64,000 nucleotides of DNA from Streptacidiphilus anmyonensis (lineage in GTDB: Bacteria > Actinomycetota > Actinomycetes > Streptomycetales > Streptomycetaceae), in NCBI RefSeq assembly GCF_000787855.1, contig NZ_BBPQ01000019.1, positions 8,990 through 72,989 on the forward strand, in the 5' to 3' direction. The notes below the pieces were generated by a model. It made no database searches. It had not been told where the DNA came from and worked only from the letters and a program-made list of their open reading frames with translations. How positions within the stretch are numbered: the first letter of the stretch is position 1; the number at the start of each line of letters is the position of its first letter. A program made the position numbers and the translations under genes. Of the stretch, positions 4,138 through 27,612 are shown piece after piece.

Positions 4138-4140
4138 ATG

Positions 4141-4158
4141 AGTGGGCGGTCGCCCACT
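4141..4158. promoter_or_regulatory. TetR-type operator, copy 2
   Basis: AGTGGGCG-GT-CGCCCACT is a perfect 8-bp inverted repeat with a 2-base spacer and shares the AGTGGGC/GCCCACT arms with copy 1. It sits about 30 bases ahead of the TetR gene start, consistent with autoregulation. Confidence 0.75.
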
Positions 4159-4189
4159 CGTCAAGGACATCCAGGAGAGGGGTTCCCCG

Positions 4190-4777
4190 ATGCCGACCGG
4201 CGTGGCCATCCGCGACCCGCGCCAGCAGCTGTTCGAGGCCGCCGAGCGCGTGCTGCTGCGCGAGGGCCCGAGCGCACTGTCCAGCCGGGCCGTCACGACC
4301 GAGGCGGACTGCGCCAAGGGCGTGCTGCACCGGCACTTCCCGGACTTCGACGCGTTCCTCGCCGAGCTCGTCCTCGACCGCATCGCCCGCATCGACGCGC
4401 GGGCGGCGACCCTCCAGGCCGCCGCCGGCCGGGGGGCCGTGGTCGACAACCTCGCGGACGCGCTCACGGACATGCTCGGCCCGGTGGCCGTCGCCGTCGT
4501 CGGGCTGGTCATCTCCCGCGACGCCCTCCGCGCGCGCCTGCGCGAGGCACGCCCGAGGGGTGTCCCGCTGCTCGGCGACGCTGCGGCCGTCCTCGCCGCC
4601 TACCTCGCGACCGAACGCGACCTCGACCGCCTCTCCCCCGACACCGACGTGGACGCCCTCGCGCCCACCCTCATCGGCGCCGCCCACCTCCTCCTCGCCG
4701 ACCGCACCGGCGCCCCGCCGGACCCGGGGGCGCTCCGACGCGTCATCACCGGCGTGACGGGAGCGTGGCTGCGCTGA
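4190..4777 (+). CDS. TetR/AcrR family transcriptional regulator
   Basis: 195 residues from ATG 4190, preceded by AGGAGAGG at a good distance. The N-terminal helix-turn-helix reads QQLFEAAERVLLREGPSALSSRAVTTEADCAKGVLHRHFPDFDAFLAELV, the standard TetR layout with recognition helix near KGVLHRHF. The C-terminal ligand-binding part is alanine-rich and not assignable. An in-frame ATG at 4142 would fall inside operator copy 2 and is less likely. It is divergent from the methyltransferase across two tandem palindromes and probably represses both genes until a ligand binds. Confidence 0.88.
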   Translation: MPTGVAIRDPRQQLFEAAERVLLREGPSALSSRAVTTEADCAKGVLHRHFPDFDAFLAELVLDRIARIDARAATLQAAAGRGAVVDNLADALTDMLGPVAVAVVGLVISRDALRARLREARPRGVPLLGDAAAVLAAYLATERDLDRLSPDTDVDALAPTLIGAAHLLLADRTGAPPDPGALRRVITGVTGAWLR

Positions 4778-4925
4778 CCCCGCCGACTGCGCTTGGGCGC
4801 AAAGGGTGAAACGGCAAGAGCATGGTACGTACTCGAACTATATGCGGGTACGTGAGGTGTACATGCACCGACGAGCCCTGTGGAGCCCAATGACTCCCCT
4901 CGCGGTGAGAAACAAGGAGACCCCA

Positions 4926-5321
4926 GTGGTCAAGCGCGCGATGAAGTACGGTCTGGCCGCAGCGGCGACGGCGGCCATGCTGGTCGGCTCGGGCGGCTTT
5001 GCGGCCGCCGCCGGCACGGGAACGATGCACATCGTCGAGGGCCCGAAGGTGCCGCTTCCCAAGGCGCCCGGCAACGGCTACGCCGGGGACGCGGCGGCCT
5101 CGGCCAAGTGTCCGGCCGGGGAGGTCCTCACGGGCGGCGGAGCCGAGGTGAAGGCTGGGAACTCCTACGTCGCGCGCTACAACCTCTCGGCGAGCAGGCC
5201 GATCGGCAACGAGACGTGGTGGGCCTACGGCACGAACACCGACCCCACCGACGCGGGCACGATCCAGGCCTTCGCGGTCTGCGCGAAGGTCACCAACCTG
5301 GACGTGGTCCACACTCCCTGA
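4926..5321 (+). CDS. Small secreted protein of unknown function
   Basis: 131 residues from GTG 4926, preceded by AAGGAG seven bases upstream. The N-terminus (basic start, hydrophobic alanine stretch, then GGFAAAAGTG) is a Sec signal peptide. The mature part has two cysteines (KCPAGEVLTGGG and FAVCAKV) that could form a disulphide and a WWAYGTNTDPTDAGTIQAF segment. This layout is common among secreted Streptomyces proteins of unknown role. The 148 bases upstream hold AT-richer sequence with two GGTACGT/GGGTACGTG motifs that may be part of its promoter. Confidence 0.75.
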   Translation: MVKRAMKYGLAAAATAAMLVGSGGFAAAAGTGTMHIVEGPKVPLPKAPGNGYAGDAAASAKCPAGEVLTGGGAEVKAGNSYVARYNLSASRPIGNETWWAYGTNTDPTDAGTIQAFAVCAKVTNLDVVHTP

Positions 5322-5388
5322 CGCGGCCACGAGGTACGAAGCTGACGAAGGTAGGGGCGGCGCACCTTCCCAGGCGACGCCTCTGCCG

Positions 5389-6075
5389 TCAACGCCAGGC
5401 CGCGGCCATCGCGGGGCGTCCGGTCGCCCGCGCCAAGTCCGCGATGGCGTCGCTCTTGACGAACCACGCCGCGCCGAAGGCGAAGACCGAGACCGACTCC
5501 CCCGCGAAGACGGGCGTCAGCCCGCCCGCGCCGGTGAAGTGGAGCAGGTCGGCGAAGAGTATGCCCGCGATGCAGAGGCCGATGACGACGCCGCAGACCA
5601 GGTAGATCCGCCGCCGCAGCGGGCCGTCCGGCTCGGAGGCGTCGCGGAAGAGGCGGACGCAGAAGACGGCGAGGGCGGTGAAGACGATCGCGGCGGAGAC
5701 GACGTGGATCTCGCCGAGCAACTTCTGCGTGGTCGACGGGTGGGCGACGATCGAGGCCGGCGGTTCCATCGGGCACATCGCGACCACGACCGCGAACAAG
5801 CCCGCCACCGAACTCCACACGTCCTCACGGCGGTTGTGGCGGTAGCAGAGCAGGATCACCCCGATGGCCCACAGGCCGCCGACGAAGACGTTGCGCATGT
5901 GGGTGTAGTACGAACCGCTCAGCGAGGCCAGCAGGCCGAGATGCGCGGAGATGATGCTGTTGCCCAGCGGCAGCACGATCGGCAGGGCGATGCCCACGAT
6001 TCCGACGCCCAGCCGCAGGCGCTTGACGGTAGTGGTGTCCTGGTCGGTTCGAGCGACCGCCTCGACAGTCGTCAT
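5389..6075 (-). CDS. DUF998-like integral membrane protein
   Basis: 228 residues from ATG 6075, with GGGGGTGTG just upstream as a possible ribosome site. About six to seven hydrophobic helices are visible (for example LGVGIVGIALPIVLPLG, NVFVGGLWAIGVILLCY, SVAGLFAVVVAMC, VVSAAIVFTALAVFCV, LVCGVVIGLCIAGILF). The spacing and the short HNRRED loop after helix 2 resemble DUF998 membrane proteins. No transport or catalytic motif was found, so the function is unknown. Confidence 0.7.
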   Translation of the reverse strand: MTTVEAVARTDQDTTTVKRLRLGVGIVGIALPIVLPLGNSIISAHLGLLASLSGSYYTHMRNVFVGGLWAIGVILLCYRHNRREDVWSSVAGLFAVVVAMCPMEPPASIVAHPSTTQKLLGEIHVVSAAIVFTALAVFCVRLFRDASEPDGPLRRRIYLVCGVVIGLCIAGILFADLLHFTGAGGLTPVFAGESVSVFAFGAAWFVKSDAIADLARATGRPAMAAAWR

Positions 6076-6269
6076 GCGCCACACCCCCTGGACCGGTGAC
6101 GGCGGACGCCATTCCGCTTTCGTGACGCCCTGCAATGGTCATACGCGCAGGGTGACGGCATGTCAATCGAACGAACAGGTTTCCACAACCGCTGTAAGAG
6201 TCCGAGGCCGACGCCCTCTCCCCTGGTGTGACCGCTGCGGCGGCGGTCGCGACGGCAGAGGAAGGACGG

Positions 6270-6695
6270 ATGACGATGCGCATCGCGCACGACCTGATCG
6301 CGCACCAGCAGGTGGCGGACCGGTGCGGCCGCGCGCTGGCAGCGCGGCTGGAGTACCGCGCCGAGGAGCCCTACGAGGTCCGGCTGCTCTTCCACACCGA
6401 CCGGCCCGATCCGGTCGTCTGGGTCTTCGGGCGCGACCTGCTGCTCGAGGGGCTCCGCCGCCCGTGCGGATCGGGCGACGTGCGCATCCGACCGGCCTTC
6501 GACGGGGGCCGTCACCTGCTCTCCGTGGTGCTGGCCGGGGACACCGGGACGGCTGTCGTCGAGATCCCGGCAGCCGAGGCCGGGGCCTTCGCTCTGCGGA
6601 CGCTTCGTCTCGTCCCCGAGGGCGAGGAGGTGCAGCGCCTGGACGTCGACTCCCTCACCGCGAGCCCCCTGCTCACCGCGGGTCGCCTCGGCTGA
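6270..6695 (+). CDS. SsgA-like sporulation/cell-division protein (SALP family)
   Basis: 141 residues from ATG 6270 with GAAGGA upstream, the usual SALP length. Landmarks are ARLEYRAEEPYEVRLLFHTD, VVWVFGRDLLLEGLRRPCGSGDVRIRP and the C-terminal half rich in valine strands. SALPs occur only in sporulating actinomycetes, where they steer septum placement, FtsZ recruitment or wall synthesis. Which paralogue this is (SsgA-G) cannot be settled from the sequence. It stands alone and ends at a strong bidirectional terminator. Confidence 0.88.
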   Translation: MTMRIAHDLIAHQQVADRCGRALAARLEYRAEEPYEVRLLFHTDRPDPVVWVFGRDLLLEGLRRPCGSGDVRIRPAFDGGRHLLSVVLAGDTGTAVVEIPAAEAGAFALRTLRLVPEGEEVQRLDVDSLTASPLLTAGRLG

Positions 6696-6731
6696 GACCG
6701 TCCGGAAAGCCGGAGGCCGCCCCGAAAGCCG

Positions 6732-6765
6732 GAGCGCCCGGCCACCGCAGGGTGGCCGGGCGCTC
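6732..6765. terminator. Bidirectional hairpin terminator
   Basis: A perfect 15-bp stem (arms GAGCGCCCGGCCACC and its complement) with a GCAG loop lies between the convergent ssgA-like gene and the S53 peptidase gene. Confidence 0.85.
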
Positions 6766-6779
6766 GTGAGGGGTCGGCG

Positions 6780-7988
6780 TCAGCCGGTGAAGGCGGTCAG
6801 GCCGTTCGGGGTGCCGAGGCCGGTCGGGCCGTCGTAGCCGGTCTCCGCGGTGCAGAGGTAGGCCGGGGAGCAGCTGGCGGTCTTGCCCGTGGTCACGTCG
6901 TTGAGCGACGTGGTGTTGGCGTACAGGTTCTTGGCCGGGACCGAGGCGCTGTGCGTGCCCGCGTCGGCGTAGACGCCGGCGATGAGCGGGGCCGCGACGG
7001 AGGTGCCGCCGTAGACGCTCCAGCCGGACGCGCCGTAGGTCTGGTAGACGGCCACGCCGGTCGCCGGGTCGGCGACCGCGGAGACGTCGGCGACGGTCCG
7101 CTTCGAGCAGCCGGTGTCCTTCTGCCAGGACGGCTTGGGCTCATAGGCGGAGCAGCCGGAGCCGGCGCCCTCGGTGCTGGAGGTGGACCAGACGCTCTCG
7201 CTCCAACCACGGGTGTTGGACGCCTTGCTGAGCGAGGTGCCGCCGACCGCGGTGACGTTCGGGGACGCCGCCGGGTACTCCACTCCGTAGCCGCCGTCAC
7301 CGGAGGAGGCGGTGATCACGATGCCGGGGTGGTTGAAGTAGGTGCTGTCGTAGCTGGTGTCGGCGGAGGACTCCGAGCCGCCGTAGCTGTTGGAGATCTC
7401 GGTGGCGCCGAGCTTGGCGGCCTCGTTGACCGCGGTGCCCAGGTTGGTCATGCTCGCCGTCTTGGCCTCGACCAGGATGATGTGCGCGTTGGGGGCGATC
7501 GCGGAGACCATGTCCAGGTCGAGCGAGATCTCGCCGGCCCAGCCGGAGTTGCTGCTCGGCAGGGTGCTGCTGCCGGTCTGGCTGACGATCTTCAGGCAGC
7601 CGCTGGCAGTGGTGCAGGCCGGCAGGCCGTACTGCGAGCGGTAGACCGCGAGGTCGGAGGCCGCGTTCGGGTCGTTGTAGGCGTCGACGATCGCGACGGT
7701 CTGGCCCGCGCCGCCGTTGGCGGCGATGTTGTACGCGGAGCGCAGGTCCGAGGGTCCGTAGCCGGACGGCGTGGCATTGGGGGTGACGCCGGTGGCGCGG
7801 ACGTGCTCGGCGGTGCTGGTGACGTGCAGCGCGTTACAGAAGACGTGACCGGGAGTCAGGTCGACGGCGCACGAGCGGGTCCAGGAAGCGCCGTGGGTGG
7901 ACGCGGCCTGGGCGGGCGCGGCGGCCATGAGGGCCGAGACGCCGAGGGCGACGGCGGTGGCCGCGGCGGATATCGACGAGGTGCGCAA
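6780..7988 (-). CDS. Secreted S53 (sedolisin) family serine-carboxyl peptidase
   Basis: 402 residues. The start is read as TTG 7988 because GGAGG (7996-8000) lies at the correct distance and the signal peptide (TAVALGVSALMAAAPAQA) begins right after it. An ATG at 8036 has no such site. The catalytic set of the family is present: Glu153 and Asp157 in GEISLD, the oxyanion-hole Asp in SSGDGG, and Ser330 in GGTSVAAP. The protein lacks a long pro-region, so it is a compact sedolisin of the type common in actinomycetes. It is exported and degrades protein, usually at acid pH. It is not obviously linked to the glucan genes beyond proximity. Confidence 0.9.
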   Translation of the reverse strand: MRTSSISAAATAVALGVSALMAAAPAQAASTHGASWTRSCAVDLTPGHVFCNALHVTSTAEHVRATGVTPNATPSGYGPSDLRSAYNIAANGGAGQTVAIVDAYNDPNAASDLAVYRSQYGLPACTTASGCLKIVSQTGSSTLPSSNSGWAGEISLDLDMVSAIAPNAHIILVEAKTASMTNLGTAVNEAAKLGATEISNSYGGSESSADTSYDSTYFNHPGIVITASSGDGGYGVEYPAASPNVTAVGGTSLSKASNTRGWSESVWSTSSTEGAGSGCSAYEPKPSWQKDTGCSKRTVADVSAVADPATGVAVYQTYGASGWSVYGGTSVAAPLIAGVYADAGTHSASVPAKNLYANTTSLNDVTTGKTASCSPAYLCTAETGYDGPTGLGTPNGLTAFTG

Positions 7989-8281
7989 CGTACAGCCTCC
8001 AGTGGGGAGTTCGGGCCCGTTCGCGCAGGCGGACACGACACCGTGCCACCTGCGCGAACGATATGACGTAGCGAGGAACCTCTGAACACCCTCTTAAGTG
8101 GTGTCAGCTGGCGAGAACCGTACCCACGGTGTCTGCGGACTGACAAGAGATGGTCGGCCGATGAAACTCACGTTTACCCGCCCGCAACAATGCTCCGCGC
8201 GTAGCCCCATGTGTCGAACCGTCAGAAACCCTTACCTAAGCGCGAAAACCAGCGGCCCGACGTCCAGGAGATTCACAGCGG
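7989..8281. other. Intergenic region, promoter side of the S53 peptidase gene
   Basis: About 290 bases without a gene. Locally AT-richer sequence (around 8090-8240) should hold the minus-strand promoter of the peptidase. No clear -35/-10 pair or palindrome could be assigned by eye. Confidence 0.4.
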
Positions 8282-8320
8282 ACGGCCGGACCGGCTCCTC
8301 GACGGAGCCGGCCCGGCCGT
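8282..8320 (-). terminator. Hairpin terminator after the compact GH87 gene
   Basis: A 17-bp stem with one mismatch (left arm 8282-8298, right arm 8304-8320) and loop TCGAC begins about 34 bases after the GH87 stop in the direction of transcription. Confidence 0.8.
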
Positions 8321-8353
8321 TGACGGCGCCGCCCCTGAAGGAGGCGGTGCCGG

Positions 8354-10390
8354 TCAGTGGGAGGCGTCCGGGGCGAGCCAGGGGCTCGGCGCGGCCGGCG
8401 GGACGACGGCGGGGCGGTCGTCACAGGTGATCGTGTTCGGCAGCTCCCACGGCGCCAGCCAGGCGCCGGTCGTGCCGCCGCCGGTGTTGCCGCCCAGGTC
8501 GGTGAGGGAGAACTCCGAGCCCGCCGAGGTGAAGTGGAACGAGCCGCAGTTGTTCACCCCGACCGCGCCCACGTTCCGTGCCTCCACGTCCTGGAACGTC
8601 GCGTTCCCGGCCGCGCGGGCGCTGACCACGTCGGTGCCCGTGCCGTCCACCCGGATGTGGCTGAAGTGCACGTTGCTGATGGAGTACTGGTCCTTCACGC
8701 TGTAGTCCGAGACCAGCATGACGGCGTCGTAGGTGTTGTCCAGGAAGTCGTCGCCGGTGACCTGGACGTCCGCGTCGATGCTGTGCTCCAGCGCGTAGAT
8801 CCAGATCGCGCCCAGCCCGATCTTCCAGTTCAACTCGAAGGTCCCGGCCCGGACGGTGGTGTTGTCCGCGACCGAGATCCGGCCCGCGAACGGCACCGCG
8901 CCGAAGCGGGTGCCCAGTTGGATCGCGCTGCCCTCCCGGATCGGGTCGGCGACGAGGTTGCCGGAGACGGTGAGGTCCGAACCGCCGTAGAGCGCGATGC
9001 CGTTGGCCAGCACGGGCGTCTGCACGGTGTTGTGCGCGACGACGTCGTGCGCGTCGGCGGCCGGTGCGGACCAGAGCGCGATCCCGTCGTCCCCGGTGTT
9101 GCGGACGAAGTTGCCCGCGATGAGCGAGTTCGTCACCCCGCCGTGGAAGTTGATGCCGTCGGCGATCTGGTCGGCGATCTGGTTGCCGGTGATCCGCAGG
9201 TCGTTCATCGGGCCGTCCAGCCAGATGCCCACCTTGGTGTGCTGGATGTACAGCCCCTCGATCGAGGAGTCACTGAGCGCGCCGCCGACACCGTTGACCT
9301 GGTCGGTGTCGATCCGCTCGCGCACGTCGCCCTCGATGGCGAAGTCCCGCAGGTGCACGTCGTGGCTGCCGCCGGCGGAGGCGTCCTTGCCGTAGAAACC
9401 GACCCCGGTGTGGACCGAGCCGTCGGGCATGGGCGAGGAGAGCGTCACCTGGTGGCCCTTGATGACGGTGTACCAGTTGCCCGCGCCCTGGATGGTCACG
9501 TGGTCGACGATGATGTGCCGGTTCACCTGGTACGTCCCCGGCGGCACCCACACCGTCCGTCCGCTGCGCTGTGCGGCGGCGACCGCCGCGTCGAAGGCGT
9601 CGGCGGAGTCCTTGACCCCGGTCGGGTCGGCGCCGAAGTCCCGGACGTCGAGGGCGTGCTCGGGCGCGCGCAGCGGCGGCGCGACGCGCTGCGTGTCGAG
9701 CACGTCGATCGTCGTGGTCGCGGCCGGGCTTCCGGCCAGGACGGCCAGCCGGATCACCTGCCCCGCGTGGTAGGTGTGGTCGAGCAGCAGGCGCTGCTCG
9801 TCGTAGAAGTGGCTGGGCCGGAACGGCGTCGGGAAGACGGGCGCGGGCGTCGTCTGGTCCGGCACGCAGCTGCACTCGGTGGTCCACCAGTCCGGGTCCA
9901 GCGGACCGGCGCCCGGGTCGTTGGTGAACGGGTACTCGTTGTAGAGCCAGGCGTACTGCGAGGTCAGCGTCATCGTCCGGCGGTGCTTCCCGTCGACGCT
10001 GACGTCGAGCGGCGCGGTGATGCCGCCGCCGTCCGGGGCGTCCGGGATGCTGTAGCGGACGGTGATCGCGTTGGTGTCGGCGGGCAGGGTGAAGTCCACG
10101 TACTGACCCGGCGTCAGCGAGACGGCCTTACGGCCGGTGGCCTCGGACGCGAGGGTGTACGGCGTCGTGTCGGGCCCGATCACCGTCCCGTCGGTCCGGG
10201 CGTTGAAGGCGTTCTGCTCGGCGAAGCCGGGGTTCGCACCCCGGCCCCGCAGCAGCGACGGGTCGATCCCGGCCTGCGTCACCACGGGCTCCGGTCCGTG
10301 GGCAGTGGCATGCGCCGCGCCGGTCCCTCCGACGGCGGCGAGCAGACCTACGGCGATGGCGAGGGAGAGTTGTCTCTTTCTGTGCGACAT
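8354..10390 (-). CDS. Secreted GH87-like alpha-1,3-glucanase (compact form)
   Basis: 678 residues from ATG 10390, with AAGGAG eight bases upstream. A signal peptide (LSLAIAVGLLAAVGGTGAAHA) is followed by a jelly-roll segment (EATGRKAVSLTPGQYVDFTLP, then RYSIPDAPDGGG and SQYAWLYNEYP), then a right-handed parallel beta-helix (FGADPTGVKDSADAFDAAVAAA, VPPGTYQVNRHI). The putative catalytic aspartates are Asp411 (ADGINF) and Asp434-Asp435 (TGDDG), spaced 23 and 1 residues apart as in characterised GH87 alpha-1,3-glucanases. It lacks the discoidin, Fn3 and CARDB modules of the large GH87 protein at 17273-21559, with which it shares several core phrases. It should hydrolyse alpha-1,3-glucan or nigeran outside the cell. 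Its upstream region is occupied by a repeat element. Confidence 0.82.
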   Translation of the reverse strand: MSHRKRQLSLAIAVGLLAAVGGTGAAHATAHGPEPVVTQAGIDPSLLRGRGANPGFAEQNAFNARTDGTVIGPDTTPYTLASEATGRKAVSLTPGQYVDFTLPADTNAITVRYSIPDAPDGGGITAPLDVSVDGKHRRTMTLTSQYAWLYNEYPFTNDPGAGPLDPDWWTTECSCVPDQTTPAPVFPTPFRPSHFYDEQRLLLDHTYHAGQVIRLAVLAGSPAATTTIDVLDTQRVAPPLRAPEHALDVRDFGADPTGVKDSADAFDAAVAAAQRSGRTVWVPPGTYQVNRHIIVDHVTIQGAGNWYTVIKGHQVTLSSPMPDGSVHTGVGFYGKDASAGGSHDVHLRDFAIEGDVRERIDTDQVNGVGGALSDSSIEGLYIQHTKVGIWLDGPMNDLRITGNQIADQIADGINFHGGVTNSLIAGNFVRNTGDDGIALWSAPAADAHDVVAHNTVQTPVLANGIALYGGSDLTVSGNLVADPIREGSAIQLGTRFGAVPFAGRISVADNTTVRAGTFELNWKIGLGAIWIYALEHSIDADVQVTGDDFLDNTYDAVMLVSDYSVKDQYSISNVHFSHIRVDGTGTDVVSARAAGNATFQDVEARNVGAVGVNNCGSFHFTSAGSEFSLTDLGGNTGGGTTGAWLAPWELPNTITCDDRPAVVPPAAPSPWLAPDASH

Positions 10391-10425
10391 CGAGCGGCTC
10401 CTTTTTGGCAGACGGGAAGGACCTT

Positions 10426-10557
10426 CAGGGGCGCGAGGCTCCACCGATGTGCGGCTCCGCCGCGTGGGGGCGAGAAACCACTGATGAGCGGACGGCCCCG
10501 CACATTCGGGGCTCTACCTGGGCGGGTGGCTTGTCGCGGCAGTTCCTCGCGCCCCTG
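10426..10557. repeat. Palindrome-ended intergenic repeat, copy A
   Basis: A 132-base element with perfect 13-bp inverted ends (CAGGGGCGCGAGG / CCTCGCGCCCCTG). Its two outer segments match copy B at 16982-17110 in the opposite orientation, while the central part differs. Elements with these ends are, to my knowledge, common between genes in Streptomyces. It fills most of the space between the GH13 alpha-glucosidase stop and the GH87 start and may separate the two transcripts. Confidence 0.8.
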
Positions 10558-17272: not shown

Positions 17273-20200
17273 ATGAACCACGCACGAACACGCGCGCCGG
17301 CGCTTCTCGCCGTGCTCGCCACGCTCTTCGCACTGCTGCTGGGTACCGCCGTCGCTCCCGCCCACGCCGCGGGCAGCAACCTCGCGGCGGGCAAGAGCGC
17401 CAGTGCCTCCAGCGCCAACGGCCAGTACGTCGCCGGCAACCTCAACGACGGCGACCAGTCCAGCTACTGGGAGAGCACCAACGGCGCCTTCCCGCAGTGG
17501 GCCCAGATCGACCTCGGCTCGGCGACGAGCGTCAGCCAGGTCGTGCTGAAGCTCCCGAGCGGTTGGGGCTCCCGGACCCAGACGCTCAGCATCCAGGGCA
17601 GTACCGACGGGAACACCTTCGCCACCGTCGTGGCCTCCGCCACCTACACCTTCGACCCCGGCTCCGGGAACACGGTCACCGTCAACTTCGGGGCGACGAG
17701 CACCCGCTACGTGCGCGTGAACATCACCGCGAACAGCGGCTGGAACGCCGCCCAACTGTCCGAGTTCGAGATCTACGGCAGCTCCAACGCGCCCACGAAC
17801 CTCGCGCTCGGCAAGACCATGAGCGACTCCGGGCACACCCAGAATTACGTCGCGTCCAACGCGAACGACGGCGACGCGAACACCTACTGGGAGTCCACCG
17901 ACAACGCGCTCCCGCAGTGGCTCCAGGTCGACCTCGGCGCTTCCGTCACCGTCGACCAGGTCGTGCTGAAGCTGCCGCCGTCCACCTCCTGGGCCGCTCG
18001 GACCGAGACACTCGCCGTCCAGGGCAGCACGGACGGCAGCAGCTTCAACGACCTCGCCGCCTCCGCCGGCTACGGCTTCGACCCGGCCACCGGCAACACG
18101 GTGACCATCAACTTCAGCCAGGCGACCACCCGTTACGTGCGACTGGACATCACCGCCAACACCGGCTGGCCCGCCGGGCAGATCTCCGAGTTCGAGGTCT
18201 ACGGCCCGACCGGGGCCGCACAGCCGCCCGCCGCGCCCACCAACCTGACCTACACCCAGAACGCCGCCGGGGCGGTGGCGCTCACCTGGACGCCGTCCAG
18301 CAGCAGCGGCGTGACGGCGTACGACGTCTACGCGAACAACGCGCTGCTGACCTCCGTCCCGTCCACGGCGACGAGCTACACCGACAACCCGCCGACCACC
18401 TCGACGATCACCTACTTCGTGCGCGCCCGCGACGCCGCCGGCGACCAGTCGGCCAACAGCAACAGCGTGACCCGCGCCGGGGCTTCGGCCACGCCGCCCA
18501 CCGCGCCGAGCAACCTCGCCTACACCCAACCGGCCTCCGGGCAGGTCAAGTTGACCTGGTCCGCAGCCTCCGACCAGGTCGGGGTGACCGGATACAACGT
18601 GTACCGCAACGGCAGCAAGCTCGCCTCCGTGGGCGGTTCGACGCTGACGTACACCGACTCCGTCGCCGACTCGCTGACCGTCTCGTACGACGTGACGGCC
18701 ACCGACGCCGCGGGCCTCGAATCCGCCGCGTCCAACACCGTGACCCGCACCGGGTCCGGCGGCACCTCCACCGACCTCGCCCTGCACAAGCCGATCGACG
18801 GCACCGCGTACACCTACACCTACGCGCCCGCCAACGCGAACGACGGCGACGTCACCACCTACTTCGAAGGGTCCTCCTACCCCTCGCAGCTGACGGTGCA
18901 TCTGGGTGCCAACGCCGACCTGTCCTCCGTCGTGGTCAAGCTCAACCCGGCCTCGGCCTGGTCGGCGCGCACGCAGACGATCGCCGTGCTCGGACGCGAG
19001 CAGAGCTCCTCGACGTTCACCACGCTGGCGGCCGCGCAGTCGTACTCCTTCGACCCGAGCAGCAACCAGAACACCGTCACCATCCCGGTCTCCGGCCGGG
19101 TCGCGGACGTCGAGCTCTCCATCACCTCCAACAGCGGCGCGCCGGGCGGGCAGGTCGCCGAGCTCGAGGTCTACGGCACTCCGGCGCCGAACCCGGACCT
19201 GACGGTGACCTCCAGCTCCTGGTCGCCGTCCGCGCCGGTGGAGACGGACTCCGTCACCGCCTCCGCCGTGGTGAAGAACGGCGGCACCGCGGCCTCGGTC
19301 GCGACCGACGTCAACTTCTACCTCGGCACCACCAAGGTCGGCTCGACCACCGTCGGCGCGCTCGCGCCCGGCGCGACCCAGACCGTCTCGGCGAACATCG
19401 GCACCCAGAGCGCCGGGACGTACCAACTGACCACCAAGGTCGACGAGTCGAGGAAGAACTTCAACCTGACCGCCGACCAGAGCTACACCAACCCGACCAA
19501 CCTGGTCGTCACGCCGGTCCAGTCCGCCGACCTGGTCGGCACGCTCTCCTGGACGCCGAGCAACCCGGCCGCGGGCAACACGGTCAACTTCTCCGCCACG
19601 GTGAAGAACCAGGGCACCATCGCCACCACCAGCGGCAGCCACGGCCTCACGCTCACGCTGCTGGACGCGACGGGCAACACCGTCACCACCCTGACCGGCT
19701 CGGTCAGCGGCACGATCGCGCCCGGCGCGACGACCTCCCCGATCAGCCTCGGCTCGTGGACGGCGGTCAACGGCAAGTACACCGCGCACCTGGTGCTCGC
19801 GGCCGACGCGAACGAGCTGCCGATCAAGCAGCCGCATCTGACCAGCGACACCCCGCTCTTCGTCGGCCAGGGCGCCAACATGCCCTACGACTCCTACAAG
19901 TCCACCGACGGCGTCCTCGGCGGCTCCGGCGCGATCGTCGGCCCGAACCGCACCATCGGCGACATCGCCGGTGAGGCCACCGGGCGCGAGGCGGTGACGC
20001 TGGACAACACCGGCGACTCCGTCAGCTGGACCTCGCGCGAGGCCACCAACACCTTCGTGCTGCGCTACTCCATCCCCGACGCACCGGGCGGCGGCGGCAT
20101 CAACGCCACCCTCGACCTCTACGCCAACGGGCAGTTGGTGCAGCCGCTGAACCTCAGCTCGCACTACGCCTGGCTCTACGGCTCGGAGACCAGCCCCGGC

Positions 20201-21559
20201 GACAGCCCGAGCGCCGGCTCGCCACGGCACATCTACGACGAGTCCAGCTTCCTGCTCGCGCAGTCGTATCCGCAGGGCACGTTGTTCACGCTGAAGAAGG
20301 ACGCGTCCAACTCGTCGCAGTACGCGATCGACTTCATGAACCTGGAGCAGGCCGCCCAGACGGCGAACCCCGACCCGGCCCACCTGGTCGTCCCCGGCGG
20401 CTTCACCCAGACGGACGTCCAGAACGCGCTCGACAAGGTGCGGATGGACACCACCGGCACCTGGACCGGCGTCTACCTGCCCGCCGGCCAGTACGCGATC
20501 ACCGGTCGCCTCCAGGTGTACGGCAAGCCGGTCAAGGTGGTCGGCGCGGGCGTCTGGTACAGCCAGTTCGTCGCCCCGCAGAACCAGACCGACACGGACA
20601 CCGGCTGGGACCTCCAGTCCGGCGCCAGCGGGTCGACCTTCACCGGCTTCGCCTGGTTCGGCAACTACACCACCCGCCAGGACGGCCCCGGCCACACCTG
20701 GGACCTGCGGAACATGTCGAACATCACGATCGACAACGTCTGGATCGAGCACAACGTGGTCGGCGTCTGGGGCGCCTCCAACGTGCAGAACTCCACCTTC
20801 ACCAACATGCGCATCCGCGACACCATGGCGGACGGCATCAACCTCACCAACGGCAGCCAGGGCAACCTGATCTCCAACGACGAGGCGCGCAGCACCGGTG
20901 ACGACAGCTTCGCGCTCTTCGCGGCCCAGGACCAGAACCCGGGCAGCAAGCTGGAGAACAACACCATCCAGAACGTCACGGCGATGACCCCGTGGCGCGC
21001 GGCGGGCGTCGCGGTCTACGGCGGTGGCGGCAACACCATCCAGAACTTCGTCGTCTCCGACACCCTGTGCTACTCGGGTCTGACCATCTCCTCGCTCAAC
21101 TTCGGCTACGCCTTCGAGGGTTTCGAGTCGTCACCGCAGACGACCATCTCGAACTTCTCGCTCACGCGGGACGGCGGGCACTTCTGGGGCGCGCAGGTCT
21201 TCCCGGCCATCTGGGCCTTCTCGGCGACCCAGCCCTTCCAGGGCATCCGCGTCAACGACGCGACCATCACCGATCCCACCTACAGCGGCATCATGTTCCA
21301 GAGCGACTACTCGGGAGGCAGCGCCCTCAACCCGGTGACCGACACCGTCTTCACCAACACCACCATCACCGGCGCCCACGCGTACAACGACGCCTACGGC
21401 ACCGGTAGGTCCGGCTACGGCATCTGGGCCAACCCGCTCCCGGAGTCCGGCCAGGGCCCGGCGGTCGGGTCGGTGACCTTCAACCACCTCGTGGAGAACA
21501 ACAACGACGTGAACATCCAGAACACGACGTCGACGTTCACCATCACCGTCAATCCGTAG
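17273..21559 (+). CDS. Secreted multidomain GH87 alpha-1,3-glucanase (mutanase/mycodextranase type)
   Basis: 1,428 residues from ATG 17273 with GAGGGA upstream. After a signal peptide (residues 1-33) come discoidin/F5-8C domain 1 (about 35-170), discoidin 2 (170-315), Fn3 1 (316-405), Fn3 2 (405-497), discoidin 3 (498-640), two CARDB-like domains (640-745 and 746-865) and the GH87 catalytic part (866-1428). The catalytic part starts at MPYDSYKSTDGVLGG, carries a jelly roll and then a beta-helix. Putative catalytic residues are Asp1187 (ADGIN) and Asp1210-Asp1211 (TGDDS), with the spacing of known GH87 glucanases. The discoidin domains should bind insoluble alpha-glucan. It acts outside the cell on alpha-1,3-glucan and can feed the importer operon to its left. 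Confidence 0.9.
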   Translation: MNHARTRAPALLAVLATLFALLLGTAVAPAHAAGSNLAAGKSASASSANGQYVAGNLNDGDQSSYWESTNGAFPQWAQIDLGSATSVSQVVLKLPSGWGSRTQTLSIQGSTDGNTFATVVASATYTFDPGSGNTVTVNFGATSTRYVRVNITANSGWNAAQLSEFEIYGSSNAPTNLALGKTMSDSGHTQNYVASNANDGDANTYWESTDNALPQWLQVDLGASVTVDQVVLKLPPSTSWAARTETLAVQGSTDGSSFNDLAASAGYGFDPATGNTVTINFSQATTRYVRLDITANTGWPAGQISEFEVYGPTGAAQPPAAPTNLTYTQNAAGAVALTWTPSSSSGVTAYDVYANNALLTSVPSTATSYTDNPPTTSTITYFVRARDAAGDQSANSNSVTRAGASATPPTAPSNLAYTQPASGQVKLTWSAASDQVGVTGYNVYRNGSKLASVGGSTLTYTDSVADSLTVSYDVTATDAAGLESAASNTVTRTGSGGTSTDLALHKPIDGTAYTYTYAPANANDGDVTTYFEGSSYPSQLTVHLGANADLSSVVVKLNPASAWSARTQTIAVLGREQSSSTFTTLAAAQSYSFDPSSNQNTVTIPVSGRVADVELSITSNSGAPGGQVAELEVYGTPAPNPDLTVTSSSWSPSAPVETDSVTASAVVKNGGTAASVATDVNFYLGTTKVGSTTVGALAPGATQTVSANIGTQSAGTYQLTTKVDESRKNFNLTADQSYTNPTNLVVTPVQSADLVGTLSWTPSNPAAGNTVNFSATVKNQGTIATTSGSHGLTLTLLDATGNTVTTLTGSVSGTIAPGATTSPISLGSWTAVNGKYTAHLVLAADANELPIKQPHLTSDTPLFVGQGANMPYDSYKSTDGVLGGSGAIVGPNRTIGDIAGEATGREAVTLDNTGDSVSWTSREATNTFVLRYSIPDAPGGGGINATLDLYANGQLVQPLNLSSHYAWLYGSETSPGDSPSAGSPRHIYDESSFLLAQSYPQGTLFTLKKDASNSSQYAIDFMNLEQAAQTANPDPAHLVVPGGFTQTDVQNALDKVRMDTTGTWTGVYLPAGQYAITGRLQVYGKPVKVVGAGVWYSQFVAPQNQTDTDTGWDLQSGASGSTFTGFAWFGNYTTRQDGPGHTWDLRNMSNITIDNVWIEHNVVGVWGASNVQNSTFTNMRIRDTMADGINLTNGSQGNLISNDEARSTGDDSFALFAAQDQNPGSKLENNTIQNVTAMTPWRAAGVAVYGGGGNTIQNFVVSDTLCYSGLTISSLNFGYAFEGFESSPQTTISNFSLTRDGGHFWGAQVFPAIWAFSATQPFQGIRVNDATITDPTYSGIMFQSDYSGGSALNPVTDTVFTNTTITGAHAYNDAYGTGRSGYGIWANPLPESGQGPAVGSVTFNHLVENNNDVNIQNTTSTFTITVNP

Positions 21560-22553: not shown

Positions 22554-23750
22554 TCACCCCGCGCTGGTCGCGTGGCGTTCGAAGACCGCCGCCTGGGCCT
22601 CGCGGAGGGCGGAGGCGATGGCGCCGAGGAGGACGGCGTCGTCGCCGAGGGTGCTGGGGGCGACCTCCGGGCGGAGGGGGGTCATCCGGCCGAGGGCGTC
22701 GCGGACGGGGTCGAGGAGGAGGTCCGCGCTGTGGCCGACGCCGCCGCCGAGGACGACGAGGTCCGGGTCGAGGACGGCGGTGACGGCGGCGACGACGAGG
22801 GCGAGTCGTTCGCCCTCGCGGGCGACGGCCTCCTGCGCGCGGGGGTCGCCCGCGCGGGCCGCGTCGAAGACGTCCTTGGCCGTCGGGGCGTCGCGCAGGC
22901 CGAGTTCGCGGGCGGTGCGGACGATGGCGTCGGCCGCCACCGCGTCCTCCAGCGTGCCGCGGCGGCCCGTGGCGGTCGGGGCCGGGTCGGTGGCGGCGCT
23001 GAGGGACAGCGGGAGGAAGCCGATCTCGCCGGCCGCGCCGTGCGCGCCGGTGAAGAGGCGGCCCTCGGCGACGACGCCCATGCCGAGGCCGGTGCCGACG
23101 AGGACGTAGACGAAGAGGCGGCTGCCCCGGCCCGCGCCGAAGGCGTACTCGCCGAGCGCGGCGAGGTTGGCGTCGTTGTGGATGGACAGGTCCGGGCCGC
23201 CGAGCTGCGTGCGCAACTGCTGGACCAGCCCCGCCCGGCCCCAGCCGGGCAGGTTGACGGCGTACCGGACGCGCCCCGACTCGGCGTCGAAGACGCCGGG
23301 GGTGCCGACGGCGGCGTGCACGACCTGGTCGGCGTGGACGCCGGCCTCCGCGAGGGCGCGCTTCGTCGCCGCGGCGACCGCGTCGGCGACGGCGTCGGCC
23401 GTGCTCCCCTCGTTGGGGACGTCGACGCGGGCCTGGATGCGGCCCGCGAGATCGGCGACGGCGATCCGCAGCCGGGCGCGGCCGATGTCGACGCCGAGGA
23501 CGTAGCCGGCGGTCGGGTCCGGCTCGTAGAGCACCGCGCTGCGTCCGCGTTCGGGGACGATCGTGCCGACCTCGCGCACCAGCCCGCCCTGCTCCAGCGC
23601 GGCCAGGGCGCTGGACACCGTCGGCTTGGACAGGCCGGTGTCGCGGGCGAGTTGGGCGCGGCTCGCGGCGCCGACGCTGCGCAGGTGTTCGAGCAGCAGC
23701 AGCTCGTTGTTGCTGCGCAGTCTCGTGCGGCTCCAGGGTTGCTCGTCCAC
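22554..23750 (-). CDS. ROK family transcriptional repressor
   Basis: 398 residues from GTG 23750. The N-terminal winged helix (NNELLLLEHLRSVGAASRAQLARDTGLSKPTVSSALAALEQGGLV) is typical of NagC/XylR/Rok7B7-type repressors. The ROK fold follows: GYVLGVDIGRARLRIAVAD (phosphate loop), GTPGVFD, IHNDANLAALGEYAFG, VGTGLGMG. The zinc motif CxCGxxGCxE normally found after GEIG is absent (GEIGFLPLSLSAATDP instead). It is divergent from the permease-kinase-SIS operon and should repress it through the palindrome at 23840-23859. Confidence 0.9.
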   Translation of the reverse strand: MDEQPWSRTRLRSNNELLLLEHLRSVGAASRAQLARDTGLSKPTVSSALAALEQGGLVREVGTIVPERGRSAVLYEPDPTAGYVLGVDIGRARLRIAVADLAGRIQARVDVPNEGSTADAVADAVAAATKRALAEAGVHADQVVHAAVGTPGVFDAESGRVRYAVNLPGWGRAGLVQQLRTQLGGPDLSIHNDANLAALGEYAFGAGRGSRLFVYVLVGTGLGMGVVAEGRLFTGAHGAAGEIGFLPLSLSAATDPAPTATGRRGTLEDAVAADAIVRTARELGLRDAPTAKDVFDAARAGDPRAQEAVAREGERLALVVAAVTAVLDPDLVVLGGGVGHSADLLLDPVRDALGRMTPLRPEVAPSTLGDDAVLLGAIASALREAQAAVFERHATSAG

Positions 23751-23827
23751 GGGCTCCAGCTTCTCGGGTGGTCCGGCCTCGGTCGTCGTCGGCCCTCAAC
23801 TCTAGACAACTGTGATCGCCCGGAGCC

Positions 23828-23856
23828 TTGACGGCACTAGTAAAGGAATTTAACTT
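23828..23856 (+). promoter_or_regulatory. Promoter of the permease-kinase-SIS operon
   Basis: TTGACG (23828-23833), a 17-base spacer and TAACTT (23851-23856) form a good vegetative promoter. Transcription would start about 35 bases before the permease ATG at 23901. The ROK-type palindrome covers the spacer end and the -10 box. Confidence 0.65.
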
Positions 23857-23859
23857 TAC
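23840..23859. promoter_or_regulatory. Candidate ROK repressor operator
   Basis: GTAAAG-GAATTTAA-CTTTAC is a perfect 6-bp inverted repeat around an A/T-rich core, standing out in GC-rich DNA. It overlaps the -10 box, the expected position for a repressor site. Confidence 0.7.
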
Positions 23860-23900
23860 AACCCCCACCCCACACCACAGCTCCCCAACGGAGGCCCTTG

Positions 23901-25376
23901 ATGTCCGACCCGGCCGGATCGTCCGGACTGTCCAGAAAGGTCGGCCCGTTCCAGGCGACCGCCATCAACATGAGTCAGATGTGCGGAATCGGACCGTTCG
24001 TCACGATCCCGCTCATGGTCGCCGCCTTCGGCGGACCGCAGGCCGTCATCGGCTGGATCGCCGGCGCGATCCTCGCTCTGGCCGACGGTCTGATCTGGGC
24101 GGAGCTCGGCGCCTCGCTGCCGGGCTCCGGAGGCACCTACGTCTACCTGCGCGAGGCGTTCCAGTACCGCAGCGGCAAGCTCATGCCGTTCCTGTTCGTC
24201 TGGACCGCCATGCTCTTCATCCCGCTCATCATGTCGACCGGCGTCCAGGGCCTGGTGCAGTACCTCGGCTACCTGTTCCCGAAGCTCACCACCGGTCAGG
24301 GCGACATCGTGGGCGTCGGCGTCGTCGCGCTGGTCATCCTGCTGCTCTGGCGCAAGATCGAGAACATCGGCAAGGTCACCGTCGTGATGTGGGCGGTGAT
24401 GATCGTCTCCGTCGCCGCGGTGATCCTGGCCTCGTTCACGCACTTCCACCCGTCGCTGGCCTTCACCTGGCCCGCGCACGCGATCCAGCTGACCCACGGC
24501 GCGTTCTGGATCGGCTTCGCCTCGGGCCTGACCATCGGCATCTACGACTACCTCGGCTACAACACCACCGCCTACATGGGCGCCGAGGTCAAGAACCCGG
24601 GCCGGGTGCTGCCGCGCTCCATCATCTGGTCCATCGTCGCCATCATGGGGATCTACCTGCTGCTGCAGATCGGCGTCCTCGGCGTCATCCGCTGGCAGGA
24701 CATGCTCGACCCGAACAACGTCGCCTCCCAGTCCGTCGCCTCGGCGGTGCTGGAGAAGACCTTCGGCAAGACCACCGCGGACGTGGTCACCTGGCTGATC
24801 CTCATCACCGCCTTCGCCTCCGTCTTCACCGGCCTGCTCGGCGGCTCCCGGGTGCCCTTCGACGCCGCGCGCGACCAGGTCTTCTTCAAGTCCTTCGCCA
24901 AGCTGCACCCCAAGCACAACTTCCCGGTGCTGGGCCTGCTCAGCATGGGCGTCATCACCGCGGCCGGCTTCCTCTTCGCCCGCCACGTCGGCAACACCGC
25001 CACGCACCCGCCGCTGGGCATCCTGATCACCCTGCTCACCACCGTGATGGTGATCATCCAGGCGCTCGCCCAGATCGCCGCCGTCACCGTGCTGCGCAGG
25101 CGGCAGCCGAACCTGGCCCGGCCGTACAAGATGTTCCTCTACCCGCTGCCGAGCGTCGTCGCGGGCATCGGCTGGCTGGTCATCTACGGCTACGCGGACA
25201 AGGCCAACCCGGGCGTGCACCCCATCGAGTGGTCCCTCGGCTGGGTCGCCCTCGGCGTGGTGGCCTACCTGATCTGGTCCCGGGTGGAGAAGGTCTGGCC
25301 CTTCGGCGAGAAGCAGATCCGCGAGCAGTTCCTCGCCGAGCAGCAGGCCACCGAACTCGCCGGCTCCGCCACCTGA
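23901..25376 (+). CDS. APC superfamily amino acid/amine permease
   Basis: 491 residues from ATG 23901 with GGAGG just upstream. About 12 membrane helices. Family landmarks are MCGIGPFVTIPL (helix 1 substrate loop), EVKNPGRVLPRSI (the conserved loop after helix 6) and KLHPKHNFPVLGLL. APC members carry amino acids, polyamines or, in the case of FrlA, glycated amino acids. Being first in an operon with a sugar-type kinase and a SIS-domain enzyme argues for a substrate with both an amine and a sugar part, rather than a plain amino acid. That is inference. Confidence 0.85.
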   Translation: MSDPAGSSGLSRKVGPFQATAINMSQMCGIGPFVTIPLMVAAFGGPQAVIGWIAGAILALADGLIWAELGASLPGSGGTYVYLREAFQYRSGKLMPFLFVWTAMLFIPLIMSTGVQGLVQYLGYLFPKLTTGQGDIVGVGVVALVILLLWRKIENIGKVTVVMWAVMIVSVAAVILASFTHFHPSLAFTWPAHAIQLTHGAFWIGFASGLTIGIYDYLGYNTTAYMGAEVKNPGRVLPRSIIWSIVAIMGIYLLLQIGVLGVIRWQDMLDPNNVASQSVASAVLEKTFGKTTADVVTWLILITAFASVFTGLLGGSRVPFDAARDQVFFKSFAKLHPKHNFPVLGLLSMGVITAAGFLFARHVGNTATHPPLGILITLLTTVMVIIQALAQIAAVTVLRRRQPNLARPYKMFLYPLPSVVAGIGWLVIYGYADKANPGVHPIEWSLGWVALGVVAYLIWSRVEKVWPFGEKQIREQFLAEQQATELAGSAT

Positions 25377-25474
25377 TCGATCCGTCGATCCGTCGACCCG
25401 GGAGCCACCGATCCAGCGGGCCCGGCCGGGACCTCCCCGCCCCGGCCGGGCCCGCACCCTGAGGAAACGCACTG

Positions 25475-26542
25475 ATGCCCGTGACACCGCAGGACCCCAC
25501 CCCGCTGCCCCACCCTTACCGACCCCAGGACGACCAACCCCAGGACCACCACGCCCAGGACCACCAGGCCCAGGACGAGGCGCCGGGCACGGTCATCGGC
25601 GTCGACTTCGGCGGCACCAAGACCGAGGTCGCCCTCGCCGACTCCCGCGGGCGCCTGCTCGCCCGCGAACGGCTCGACACCCTCGCCGAGCGCGGCCCCG
25701 ACCAGACCCTCGCGCGCGCCGCCGACGCCGCCCGACGGCTGGCCCGCGAGTCGCGCGAGCGCCACGGCGTCGCCGTCGCCGCCTACGCCGCCGTCGCGCC
25801 GGGCATCGTCCAGGCCGACCGGATCCTGCTCACCCCCAACCTGCCCGGCTGGGAGCGGCTCGCCCTGTCGACGCGCCTGGCCGAGGAGTTGGACACCCCA
25901 TCGGTCGCCGTCGCCAACGACGTCCGGGCGGGCGCGCTCGCCGAGCTGCGCTTCGGGGCGCTGCGCGACGCCGACCCGGGTCTGTACGTGAGCCTCGGCA
26001 CCGGCATCGCGGCCGCGCTGACCGTGGGCGGGCAGGTCCTCGCCGGCGCGCACCAGGCGGCCGGGGAGATCGGCTACGTCAACCCCGGCGGCGCACCCGT
26101 GGACGCCGTCGCGGCCGGGCACGCGCCGCTGGAGGAGATCGTCGGCGGCAAGGGCCTCGGCGAACGGGCCGCCGAACTGCTGGGCCGCAGCGTCAGCGCC
26201 GCCGAACTGTTCCGCAGCACCGACCCCGACGCCCGCGACCTGGCCGAGCACGCGCTCACCGTGCTGGCCGTCACCCTCGCCAACCTCTGTGCCTTCGCCG
26301 ACCCGGCCCGGATCGTGCTGGGCGGCGGCATGATGGCCGCCGCCGAGGTGATCCTGCCCACCCTGGAGCGGCTGATCGCCGACGCCACCCCCTTCCCGCC
26401 CGAACTGCGGGCCGCCCGCTTCCGTCGCGACGCCTCGCTGCACGGCGCGGTCACGCTCGCGATCGACAGCCTCCACACGCACCGCCGCGAACGCGGCGGC
26501 GACCGACCGCGTCCCACCGCACCCCTGGGAGCCCTTCGATGA
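25475..26542 (+). CDS. ROK family sugar kinase (zinc motif missing)
   Basis: 355 residues from ATG 25475 with GAGGAA upstream. After a His/Gln/Asp-rich leader (residues about 12-37, encoded by a roughly 15-base tandem repeat) comes the phosphate loop VIGVDFGGTKTEVALAD, then NDVRAGALAELRFG with the catalytic Asp, SLGTGIAAAL, and VLGGGMM. The CxCGxxGCxE zinc motif of ROK kinases is replaced by GEIGYVNPGGAPVDAVAAGHAPLEE-like sequence without cysteines. The catalytic Asp is kept, so it may still phosphorylate a sugar or amino sugar. The stop overlaps the SIS gene start by 4 bases, which implies coupled translation. Confidence 0.85.
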   Translation: MPVTPQDPTPLPHPYRPQDDQPQDHHAQDHQAQDEAPGTVIGVDFGGTKTEVALADSRGRLLARERLDTLAERGPDQTLARAADAARRLARESRERHGVAVAAYAAVAPGIVQADRILLTPNLPGWERLALSTRLAEELDTPSVAVANDVRAGALAELRFGALRDADPGLYVSLGTGIAAALTVGGQVLAGAHQAAGEIGYVNPGGAPVDAVAAGHAPLEEIVGGKGLGERAAELLGRSVSAAELFRSTDPDARDLAEHALTVLAVTLANLCAFADPARIVLGGGMMAAAEVILPTLERLIADATPFPPELRAARFRRDASLHGAVTLAIDSLHTHRRERGGDRPRPTAPLGALR

Positions 26543-27612
26543 CGACCACGACGACCACCCGGCCCGCCGCCGTCCCCGGCGCCCGGATGGAGGCGGAGAT
26601 GCGCCAGCAACCGGAGGTGCTGGCCGCCCTGGTCGACCGCTGGCCGGCCCTGACCGCGCAGGTCGCCGCCCTGACGGACGGTGCTCCGCCGCTCGGCGTC
26701 GCCTTCCTCGCCCGCGGCTCCTCCGACCACGCGGCCCTGCTCGGCCGCTACGCCGTCGAACTGCGGACGGGCCTGCCCACGTGCCTGGTGGCGCCGAGCG
26801 TGGCGACCGCGTACGGCAGGGCGCCGGAGGGCTTCCAGGGCTGGCTGCTGGTCGCGCTCTCCCAGTCCGGCCGCACACCGGAGATCGTCGACCTGGCGCG
26901 CCGCTACGCCGACGCGGGCGCGCGGGTGGTCGCCGTGACCAACGACGGCGGATCCGCGCTGGCGGGCGCGGCTCATCTGTCGATCGCCCTGGAGGCGGGG
27001 CCCGAGGTCGCGGTCCCGGCGACGAAGACCGTCACGGGGCAGTTGCTCGCCCTGCTGGCCCTCGCCGCCGGGCTCGCGCCCGGCGGGTTCGGATCGGCCG
27101 GGCTCACGCAGGCTCAGGCCGCCGCCCTCCCGGACGCGGTGGCGCGCGTCCTCGCGGACGCGGAGAGCGCCGAGCGCGCCGCGGCGCTGCTCGCCGACCA
27201 CGACCGCCTGGCCGTCGTCGGGCGCGGCGCCTGCTACCCGGCGGCCCTGGAGAGCGCGCTGAAACTCCAGGAGACCACCGGCCTGATGGCGCACGGCTTC
27301 TCGACAGCGGACTTCCGCCACGGGCCGATCGCGGTCTGCGGTCCTGAGGCCCCGGCCCTCCTGCTCGCCGGCTCGGGCCCGGCGGACGCGGACACCCTCG
27401 ACCTCCGCGACGCCCTGGCCGCCCGTCGTGCCCCGATCCTGCTGGCCGGCGCCGCGCCCGAGGCCGACCTGCCCTGGCCCGCGCTCGGGCACCTCGGCGA
27501 CTGCGTCACGGCGACCGTGCGGGGCCAGCAGCTCGCCTTGGCGACCGCCCGCCGTCTCGGCATCGACCCGGACCGGCCGGCGGGGCTCAACAAGGTCACC
27601 ATGACCAGCTGA
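26539..27612 (+). CDS. SIS-domain aldose-ketose isomerase/deaminase (NagB-II/AgaS/FrlB type)
   Basis: 357 residues from ATG 26539, overlapping the kinase by 4 bases. Two SIS domains: the first has RGSSDHAALLGRY and SQSGRTPEIVDLARR (phosphosugar-binding serines), and the second has GRGACYPAALESALKLQETTGL then FSTADFRHGP. The protein ends GLNKVTMTS, as in GlmS-like isomerase domains, but it has no glutaminase domain. The N-terminal MEAEMRQQPEVLAALV matches glucosamine-6-phosphate deaminase II and fructosamine-6-phosphate deglycases. It should remove an amine from the phosphorylated substrate made by the ROK kinase. Confidence 0.85.
   Translation: MTTTTTTRPAAVPGARMEAEMRQQPEVLAALVDRWPALTAQVAALTDGAPPLGVAFLARGSSDHAALLGRYAVELRTGLPTCLVAPSVATAYGRAPEGFQGWLLVALSQSGRTPEIVDLARRYADAGARVVAVTNDGGSALAGAAHLSIALEAGPEVAVPATKTVTGQLLALLALAAGLAPGGFGSAGLTQAQAAALPDAVARVLADAESAERAAALLADHDRLAVVGRGACYPAALESALKLQETTGLMAHGFSTADFRHGPIAVCGPEAPALLLAGSGPADADTLDLRDALAARRAPILLAGAAPEADLPWPALGHLGDCVTATVRGQQLALATARRLGIDPDRPAGLNKVTMTS

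Follow-up and report, generated by a model that had tools for sequence, protein, structure and literature searches.

The window analysed here, a stretch of 64,000 nucleotides from Streptacidiphilus anmyonensis (contig NZ_BBPQ01000019.1, positions 8,990 to 72,989), is part of a 9.39-Mb genome and carries a cassette of four genes, whose open frames were confirmed. A ROK-family repressor of 398 amino acids (22554-23750, minus strand) combines an N-terminal winged helix (MarR_2/HTH_IclR at 15-60) with a ROK domain (Pfam ROK, 170.6 bits). It is transcribed divergently from an APC-family permease of 491 amino acids (23901-25376, plus strand; Pfam AA_permease_2, 155.6 bits), a predicted glucosamine importer. 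Its start was placed at the ATG at 23901 by the GGAGG upstream, the mechanical open reading frame beginning at the TTG at 23898. Next on the plus strand are a ROK kinase of 355 amino acids (25475-26542; Pfam ROK, 136.2 bits), a predicted glucosamine kinase, and a SIS protein of 357 amino acids (26539-27612) of the NagB-II/GlmS-isomerase type, a predicted glucosamine-6-phosphate deaminase whose Pfam SIS score of 99.4 bits is split over two stretches. The kinase and SIS genes overlap via ATGA. An initial annotation of positions 23751-27612 had read an APC permease, a ROK rather than PfkB kinase, a SIS enzyme and a ROK rather than GntR repressor as one regulated catabolic unit. By appearance the locus is such a unit; the repressor named in the title of that annotation lies just outside those positions. 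We consider it very likely that the cassette serves the catabolism of glucosamine, the chitosan monomer, through a CsnR-type ROK repressor, an APC permease, a ROK kinase and a NagB-II-like deaminase.

A 20-bp palindrome, GTAAAGGAATTTAACTTTAC (23840-23859), the presumed operator of the ROK repressor, precedes the permease gene. It is letter-identical in ten species (the window and the fetched loci L034, L035, L037, L038, L039, L057, L059, L061 and L112), carries a single substitution in L043 and is diverged in L060. Upstream of it, the permease promoter has a −35-like hexamer, TTGACG (23828-23833, plus strand). Across ten aligned regions (nine species with the exact palindrome, and L043), CTTGAC is invariant at a constant distance before the palindrome, and it occurs at the same spacing in L112. 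A sigma-70 scan of the permease promoter gave no formal match. The pattern GTAAAGN8CTTTAC has a single site in the whole genome, so the regulator of the cassette looks local.

The permease, kinase and SIS genes stand side by side in 13 species, namely the ten above with L043, L060 and L197, and the repressor gene is adjacent in 11 of them (the exceptions being L038 and L060). This tally was made by hand on calls from an in-house gene caller, with identical loci reached by two routes merged; it takes in L034, where the repressor match is in two pieces, and Streptomyces tateyamensis, with a broken SIS gene and no repressor. In L197, from another family, the cassette is kept at just 36–58% identity. 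The four-gene arrangement is conserved more than chance would give. Close relatives of the SIS protein are sporadic: one at 79% identity or above occurs in 7 of 14 Streptacidiphilus genomes, and one at E ≤ 1e-60 in 16 of 394 Streptomycetaceae genomes. The kinase and SIS genes are present with no adjacent permease found in L041 and L058, and the locus ends at a contig edge in L036/L055. The copy in S. tateyamensis (L060/L069/L079) is decaying, with an in-frame TGA near residue 50 of the SIS protein in addition to the missing repressor and altered operator. Degenerate SIS paralogues (41–43% identity) occur in L044, L045 and L046; to judge from the loss of the SQSG loop, the catalytic Glu/His block and the C-tail lysine, they are probably no longer enzymes of this kind.

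The relatives of the repressor and permease have informative neighbours. Five Streptomyces carry orthologues of both (permease 71–75%, repressor 63–65% identity; found through the permease search) without neighbouring relatives of the kinase or the SIS protein. In L192, L193 and L194, three of these five, the repressor gene is followed by one for a glycoside hydrolase of family GH2 with the exo-beta-D-glucosaminidase Ig domain (113–119 bits); one copy, whose start was read, has a signal peptide N-terminus as judged by eye. In L193 and L194, the site before this GH2 gene reads AGTAAAGTTTCCTAACTTTAC; the L192 version is partly degenerate. Of 21 bases, 16 are common to this site and the window operator, and the site holds, with one mismatch, the CsnR box, AGGAAANTTTCCT (PMC6097792). 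In genome G714, nagB (Pfam PF01182; 53.5% identical to the NagB of the window genome) starts 25 bases after the repressor gene, and the repressor–permease gap contains a one-mismatch CsnR box. Throughout the 1.80 Mb of fetched loci, we counted 12 CsnR-like sites at no more than one mismatch and 19 at no more than two; the loci partly overlap, and these sites reduce to 7 and 11 distinct places.

A csn-type operon is present in the same genome as the window (L244, about 3300-10541; G000:C125). It begins behind a perfect CsnR box and comprises a ROK regulator, transporter-like genes (recognised by eye only), a GH4 gene and a BadF kinase gene, a layout like that of the chitosan-oligosaccharide operon csnREFGHK as described in PMC6097792. 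Twelve other ROK loci, out of 22 ROK matches in the genome, were compared with the repressor by tblastn; the best match is L219 (37%, 191 bits), with L218 a near tie (188 bits). This nearest own-genome relative among those compared is the ROK regulator behind the perfect CsnR box (box at L244, 10528). In genome G460, a SIS gene of the same tree clade as that of the window (see below) overlaps a BadF-type kinase gene, which itself overlaps a GH4 gene; the GH4 protein and the BadF kinase share 57% and 45% identity, respectively, with their counterparts in the own-genome csn-type operon. Upstream in the same row are an oligopeptide-type ATP-binding cassette (ABC) importer, a relative of the window ROK kinase (41%) and a ROK repressor. 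Every one of the four parts of the cassette thus has relatives that adjoin genes (for glucosaminidase, nagB or of csn type) whose natural substrate is glucosamine, its oligomers or its 6-phosphate. The own genome also encodes a GH2 with the glucosaminidase Ig domain at a separate locus, with no recognisable CsnR box. With the oligomers covered by the csn-type operon and a separate glucosaminidase at hand, the window cassette would therefore serve the monomer.

Against NCBIfam models, the SIS protein scored 170.2 bits for NagB-II, 147 for GlmS, 30 for AgaS, 29 for GlmD and 22 for FrlB. Searches against solved structures gave E values of 1e-39 to 7e-41 for NagB-II types, 4e-24 and weaker for GlmS, and 6e-4 for Bacillus subtilis FrlB. 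The predicted model (predicted local distance difference test 87, predicted template modelling score 0.89) has the double-SIS GlmS-isomerase fold without a glutaminase domain. Structural Z scores were 37.9–42.0 for GlmS/GFAT, 35.5–41.7 for NagB-II, 30.3 for FrlB and 28 for FraB. With the NagB-II enzymes of Shewanella (PDB 8eol, 8eym, 8fdb) and Stenotrophomonas (7kqa), the protein shares this fold, the catalytic Glu and His and the C-tail LxKVT, at 31–34% identity in structural alignment; it differs from them in a K-to-Q change beside the catalytic Glu and in the HAE block. Glu245, His261 and the C-tail Lys352 are invariant in a 12-row alignment of SIS proteins. Escherichia coli FrlB keeps the catalytic Glu and His and lacks the LxKVT tail. 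Judged by sequence and predicted fold, the SIS protein is grouped with the NagB-II deaminases and GlmS, not with FrlB. We also considered NagS, the N-acetylglucosamine-6-phosphate dehydratase of Streptomyces, which is likewise a SIS-domain enzyme of amino-sugar metabolism. NagS is MurQ-related and was expressed from a 796-bp fragment, as described in PMC12680351, whereas the 357-residue window protein is GlmS/NagB-II-like; this identity was ruled out by the scores of 19–26 bits for MurQ models versus 170 for NagB-II.

A tree of 76 rows placed the window SIS protein inside a 25-row clade (support 99/97), sister to a 24-row clade (93/86 at the join). Four rows were removed from the input beforehand, the degenerate SIS paralogues L012, L013 and L046 and one mis-extracted own GlmS, and the broken S. 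tateyamensis protein, its frame ending near residue 50, was dropped by length. A phosphotransferase system (PTS) EIIC gene lies near the SIS gene in 11 of 12 sister-clade loci read, and the two EIICs scanned gave about equal scores for the N-acetylglucosamine and glucose types. Among 22 sister-clade genomes tested (12 of family f19, 10 of f21), no nagB match exceeds the curated cut-off; some f21 genomes carry weaker matches, up to 129 bits. Further SIS relatives adjoin ABC importers and GH3 enzymes. Another SIS gene from this wide clade, at L115 (4119-10955), is surrounded by genes for a HemL-like aminotransferase, an FGGY kinase, a LysA-like decarboxylase and a member of the beta-lactamase family. 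In a 35-row tree, drawn from the 76, the sister relation of the cassette clade is not settled. An approximately unbiased test on these 35 rows disfavoured a constrained grouping of the cassette clade with FrlB (p 0.032), a modest result that involves long branches, those of FrlB and AgaS being long in both trees.

These results bear directly on the proposal of the initial annotation that the cassette takes up and breaks down a fructosamine, for which it had named a grouping of the SIS protein with glucosamine-6-phosphate deaminases as one of two findings that would speak against it. By this scheme, the APC permease would import a glycated amine (an Amadori compound), the ROK kinase would phosphorylate C6, and the SIS enzyme would release glucose-6-phosphate and the amine. 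The three-step logic is that of the E. coli frlABCDR operon, which likewise combines an APC permease, a sugar kinase and a SIS enzyme, and the permease is the best match of the genome to the FrlA model (96 bits, 25% identity). Two other permeases of the genome score 82 and 70 bits against this model, and the FrlA cut-off of 800 bits is of little help, the E. coli control likewise staying below it in that search; the likeness of the permease to FrlA appears generic. In frl, however, the kinase is of the PfkB family (FrlD) and the regulator is of the GntR family, and the SIS enzyme, too, belongs to another subgroup. The genes called around the cassette loci include no match to FrlC. The placement that the annotation had called for sets the SIS protein with the glucosamine-6-phosphate deaminases and GlmS, and the protein is more distant from FrlB than from these in both sequence (22 vs 170 bits) and structure (Z of 30.3 vs 35–42). 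The partners found in relatives are a glucosaminidase and nagB. We therefore rejected this route on SIS family, structure and context, and hold it to be extremely unlikely.

The kinase retains D44, N148, D149 and E198 in alignment, corresponding to the DxGGTK phosphate motif, the ND catalytic pair and the sugar-binding Glu. Y201 (in EIGY) replaces the sugar/zinc His of the ExGH motif, and the CxCGxxGCxE zinc motif is absent. Relatives of the kinase share both traits: EI[GA]Y was found in 27 of 30 rows; in the remaining three, all from one genome, the pattern found nothing. The canonical zinc motif is present in 7 of the 12 other own-genome ROK loci fetched and absent from five, one of which, the csn-type regulator, likewise reads EIGY. 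Since zinc-less ROK proteins thus occur in this genome, loss of the motif marks a subgroup rather than a non-member. In the Plesiomonas shigelloides kinase NagK, the equivalent His both contacts N-acetylglucosamine and binds zinc, as given in PMC10031466; from this dual role, altered sugar handling by the Tyr-for-His kinase is plausible. Its best NCBIfam profiles are N-acetylmannosamine kinase (85 bits) and allose kinase (82 bits), all far under the cut-offs. These profiles could point to handling of another amino sugar (galactosamine, mannosamine or kanosamine) by the same steps, as could Streptomyces sp. NRRL WC-3742, where a PfkB kinase, a class-II aldolase and a second SIS protein are encoded near the kinase–SIS pair. 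We regard this as very unlikely, as the exo-beta-D-glucosaminidase, the CsnR-like sites and nagB all indicate glucosamine. Wider relatives of the kinase have ABC importers as neighbours, of the oligopeptide type and others, and one adjoins a gene of a lyase family.

From the genes and their order, the conserved operator, the family placements, the catalytic residues and the neighbourhoods of relatives, we infer the following activities, inducer and repressor binding. An exo-beta-D-glucosaminidase encoded elsewhere in the genome would release glucosamine, which the APC permease would take up. The ROK kinase would convert it to glucosamine-6-phosphate, and the NagB-II-like SIS enzyme would deaminate and isomerise this to fructose-6-phosphate and ammonia. 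Glucosamine or a small chitosan oligomer would release the CsnR-type ROK repressor from the 20-bp palindrome at the permease promoter, to which it would otherwise stay bound. Permease, kinase and deaminase would form a complete set for glucosamine, and no deacetylase is present. The alternative substrate suggested in the initial annotation, an amino sugar such as glucosamine, fits both the SIS family and the exo-beta-D-glucosaminidase and nagB genes that adjoin relatives.

Several observations weigh against the glucosamine proposal. We know of no characterised APC glucosamine carrier, and a search of open-licence papers found no description of an APC glucosamine permease or of the cassette as a whole. 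The SIS protein does not reach the 430-bit cut-off of the NagB-II equivalog NF046059 and for this reason is named NagB-II-like rather than a member. All 13 tested Streptacidiphilus genomes have nagB (12 over the cut-off, G013 just under), so the cassette enzyme would be a second deaminase. The window operator is not a CsnR box, and no site for AGGAAANTTTCCT occurs within the window at up to two mismatches; given this, and the one-mismatch boxes in orthologue gaps, the repressor and operator are termed CsnR-like rather than CsnR. The fourth of the five Streptomyces (L195) has a GH35 gene after the repressor, and the fifth (L196) has neither a glucosaminidase nor a GH35 gene there. Within the genus, the glucosaminidase GH2 domain does not track the cassette, being present in six of seven genomes with it and four of six without. 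Finally, free glucosamine does not explain the variants described next.

Six loci from three genera (L040, L113, L042, L074, L075 and L076) have the kinase and SIS genes accompanied by YhfX (PDB 4kbx, E 4e-64; PF21279), a protein known from the uncharacterised yhf operon of E. coli. A different permease, APC2, about 23% identical to the permease of the window (APC1), is present in five of the six, while the sixth locus is truncated at a contig edge; L113 additionally carries an ABC importer of the ribose type. In the SIS tree, the APC1 form and the APC2–YhfX form each turn up in two subclades. Longer-armed palindromes of the CTTTAtTAAAG form lie between a ROK regulator and a ROK kinase in L040 (8500-8760) and L160 (11450-11580), both YhfX-type loci, and L113 has a similar but less symmetric sequence; these are probably operators of sister repressors. 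YhfX was also seen in L157, L160 and L164, where ROK proteins with ABC importers of the ribose type adjoin it, and L157 and L160 additionally have a phosphotriesterase-family gene, likewise a yhf operon neighbour. Overall, YhfX is found in 19 of 394 genomes; of 16 contexts read, four were of the ROK-linked kind and most others yhf-operon-like.

The pairing of an amino-acid permease and a pyridoxal phosphate enzyme with the same kinase and SIS types raises another substrate for the window cassette, an N-substituted glucosamine such as a Heyns-type amino acid conjugate, from which the SIS enzyme would free fructose-6-phosphate and the amino acid. One more distant locus, whose SIS gene adjoins genes for a HemL-like aminotransferase, an FGGY kinase and a LysA-like decarboxylase, would be compatible with this. 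A precedent is the SIS-type deglycase of the Salmonella Gfr system, which converts glucoselysine-6-phosphate to fructose-6-phosphate and lysine according to PMC12675984, where text and legend disagree on whether this is GfrE or GfrF. Free glucosamine alone, however, would account for the glucosaminidase and nagB genes that adjoin permeases and repressors of these types, and the window genome has no YhfX match, which makes such a substrate decidedly unlikely here. A broader version, in which the kinase–SIS pair would be a module handling free and N-substituted glucosamine alike, and in which the substrate of the APC2/YhfX variants would be a glucosamine–amino acid conjugate whose released amino acid YhfX racemises or cleaves, has a slim chance of being correct.

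The glucosamine pathway proposed for the window is known in kind; the combination of its parts is new to us. Its closest counterpart is the CsnR regulon of Streptomyces with csnREFGHK, in which a ROK repressor, a palindromic operator, a dedicated importer and a sugar kinase likewise serve a chitosan-derived sugar, and in which CsnR boxes also precede GH2 genes (PMC6097792). That system, as described there, uses an ABC oligomer importer and a GH4 enzyme, whereas the window pairs an APC permease with a ROK kinase, adds a predicted SIS deaminase of its own and carries an operator distinct from the CsnR box. RokL6 of Streptomyces coelicolor is similarly a ROK regulator over a glucosamine-tied transporter, SCO1448; this is a major facilitator superfamily protein, and the excerpts of PMC12680351 mention no kinase or deaminase alongside. 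The gamAP operon of B. subtilis (PMC3648570) offers a precedent for a second, separately repressed glucosamine operon in a nagB-bearing organism; it differs in its PTS importer, canonical deaminase and GntR repressor.

On the far side of the repressor, the window encodes a 1428-residue protein (17273-21559) that combines alpha-1,3-glucanase catalytic domains (CatAgl D1/D2) with three F5/8 type C domains. It occupies this position in L035, L037, L054 and L056 as well. A link to fungal walls is possible.

For actinobacteria that have nagB already, the cassette predicts an APC-type glucosamine permease together with a NagB-II-like deaminase and a ROK kinase in which the zinc motif is absent. If the pair of kinase and SIS protein does form a module for N-substituted glucosamine, it would provide a functional lead for YhfX and the uncharacterised yhf operon of E. 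coli. In streptomycetes, glucosamine-6-phosphate is linked to the DasR regulon and to antibiotic production, as outlined in PMC6520443, and a separately controlled inlet to this metabolite would therefore be of physiological interest.

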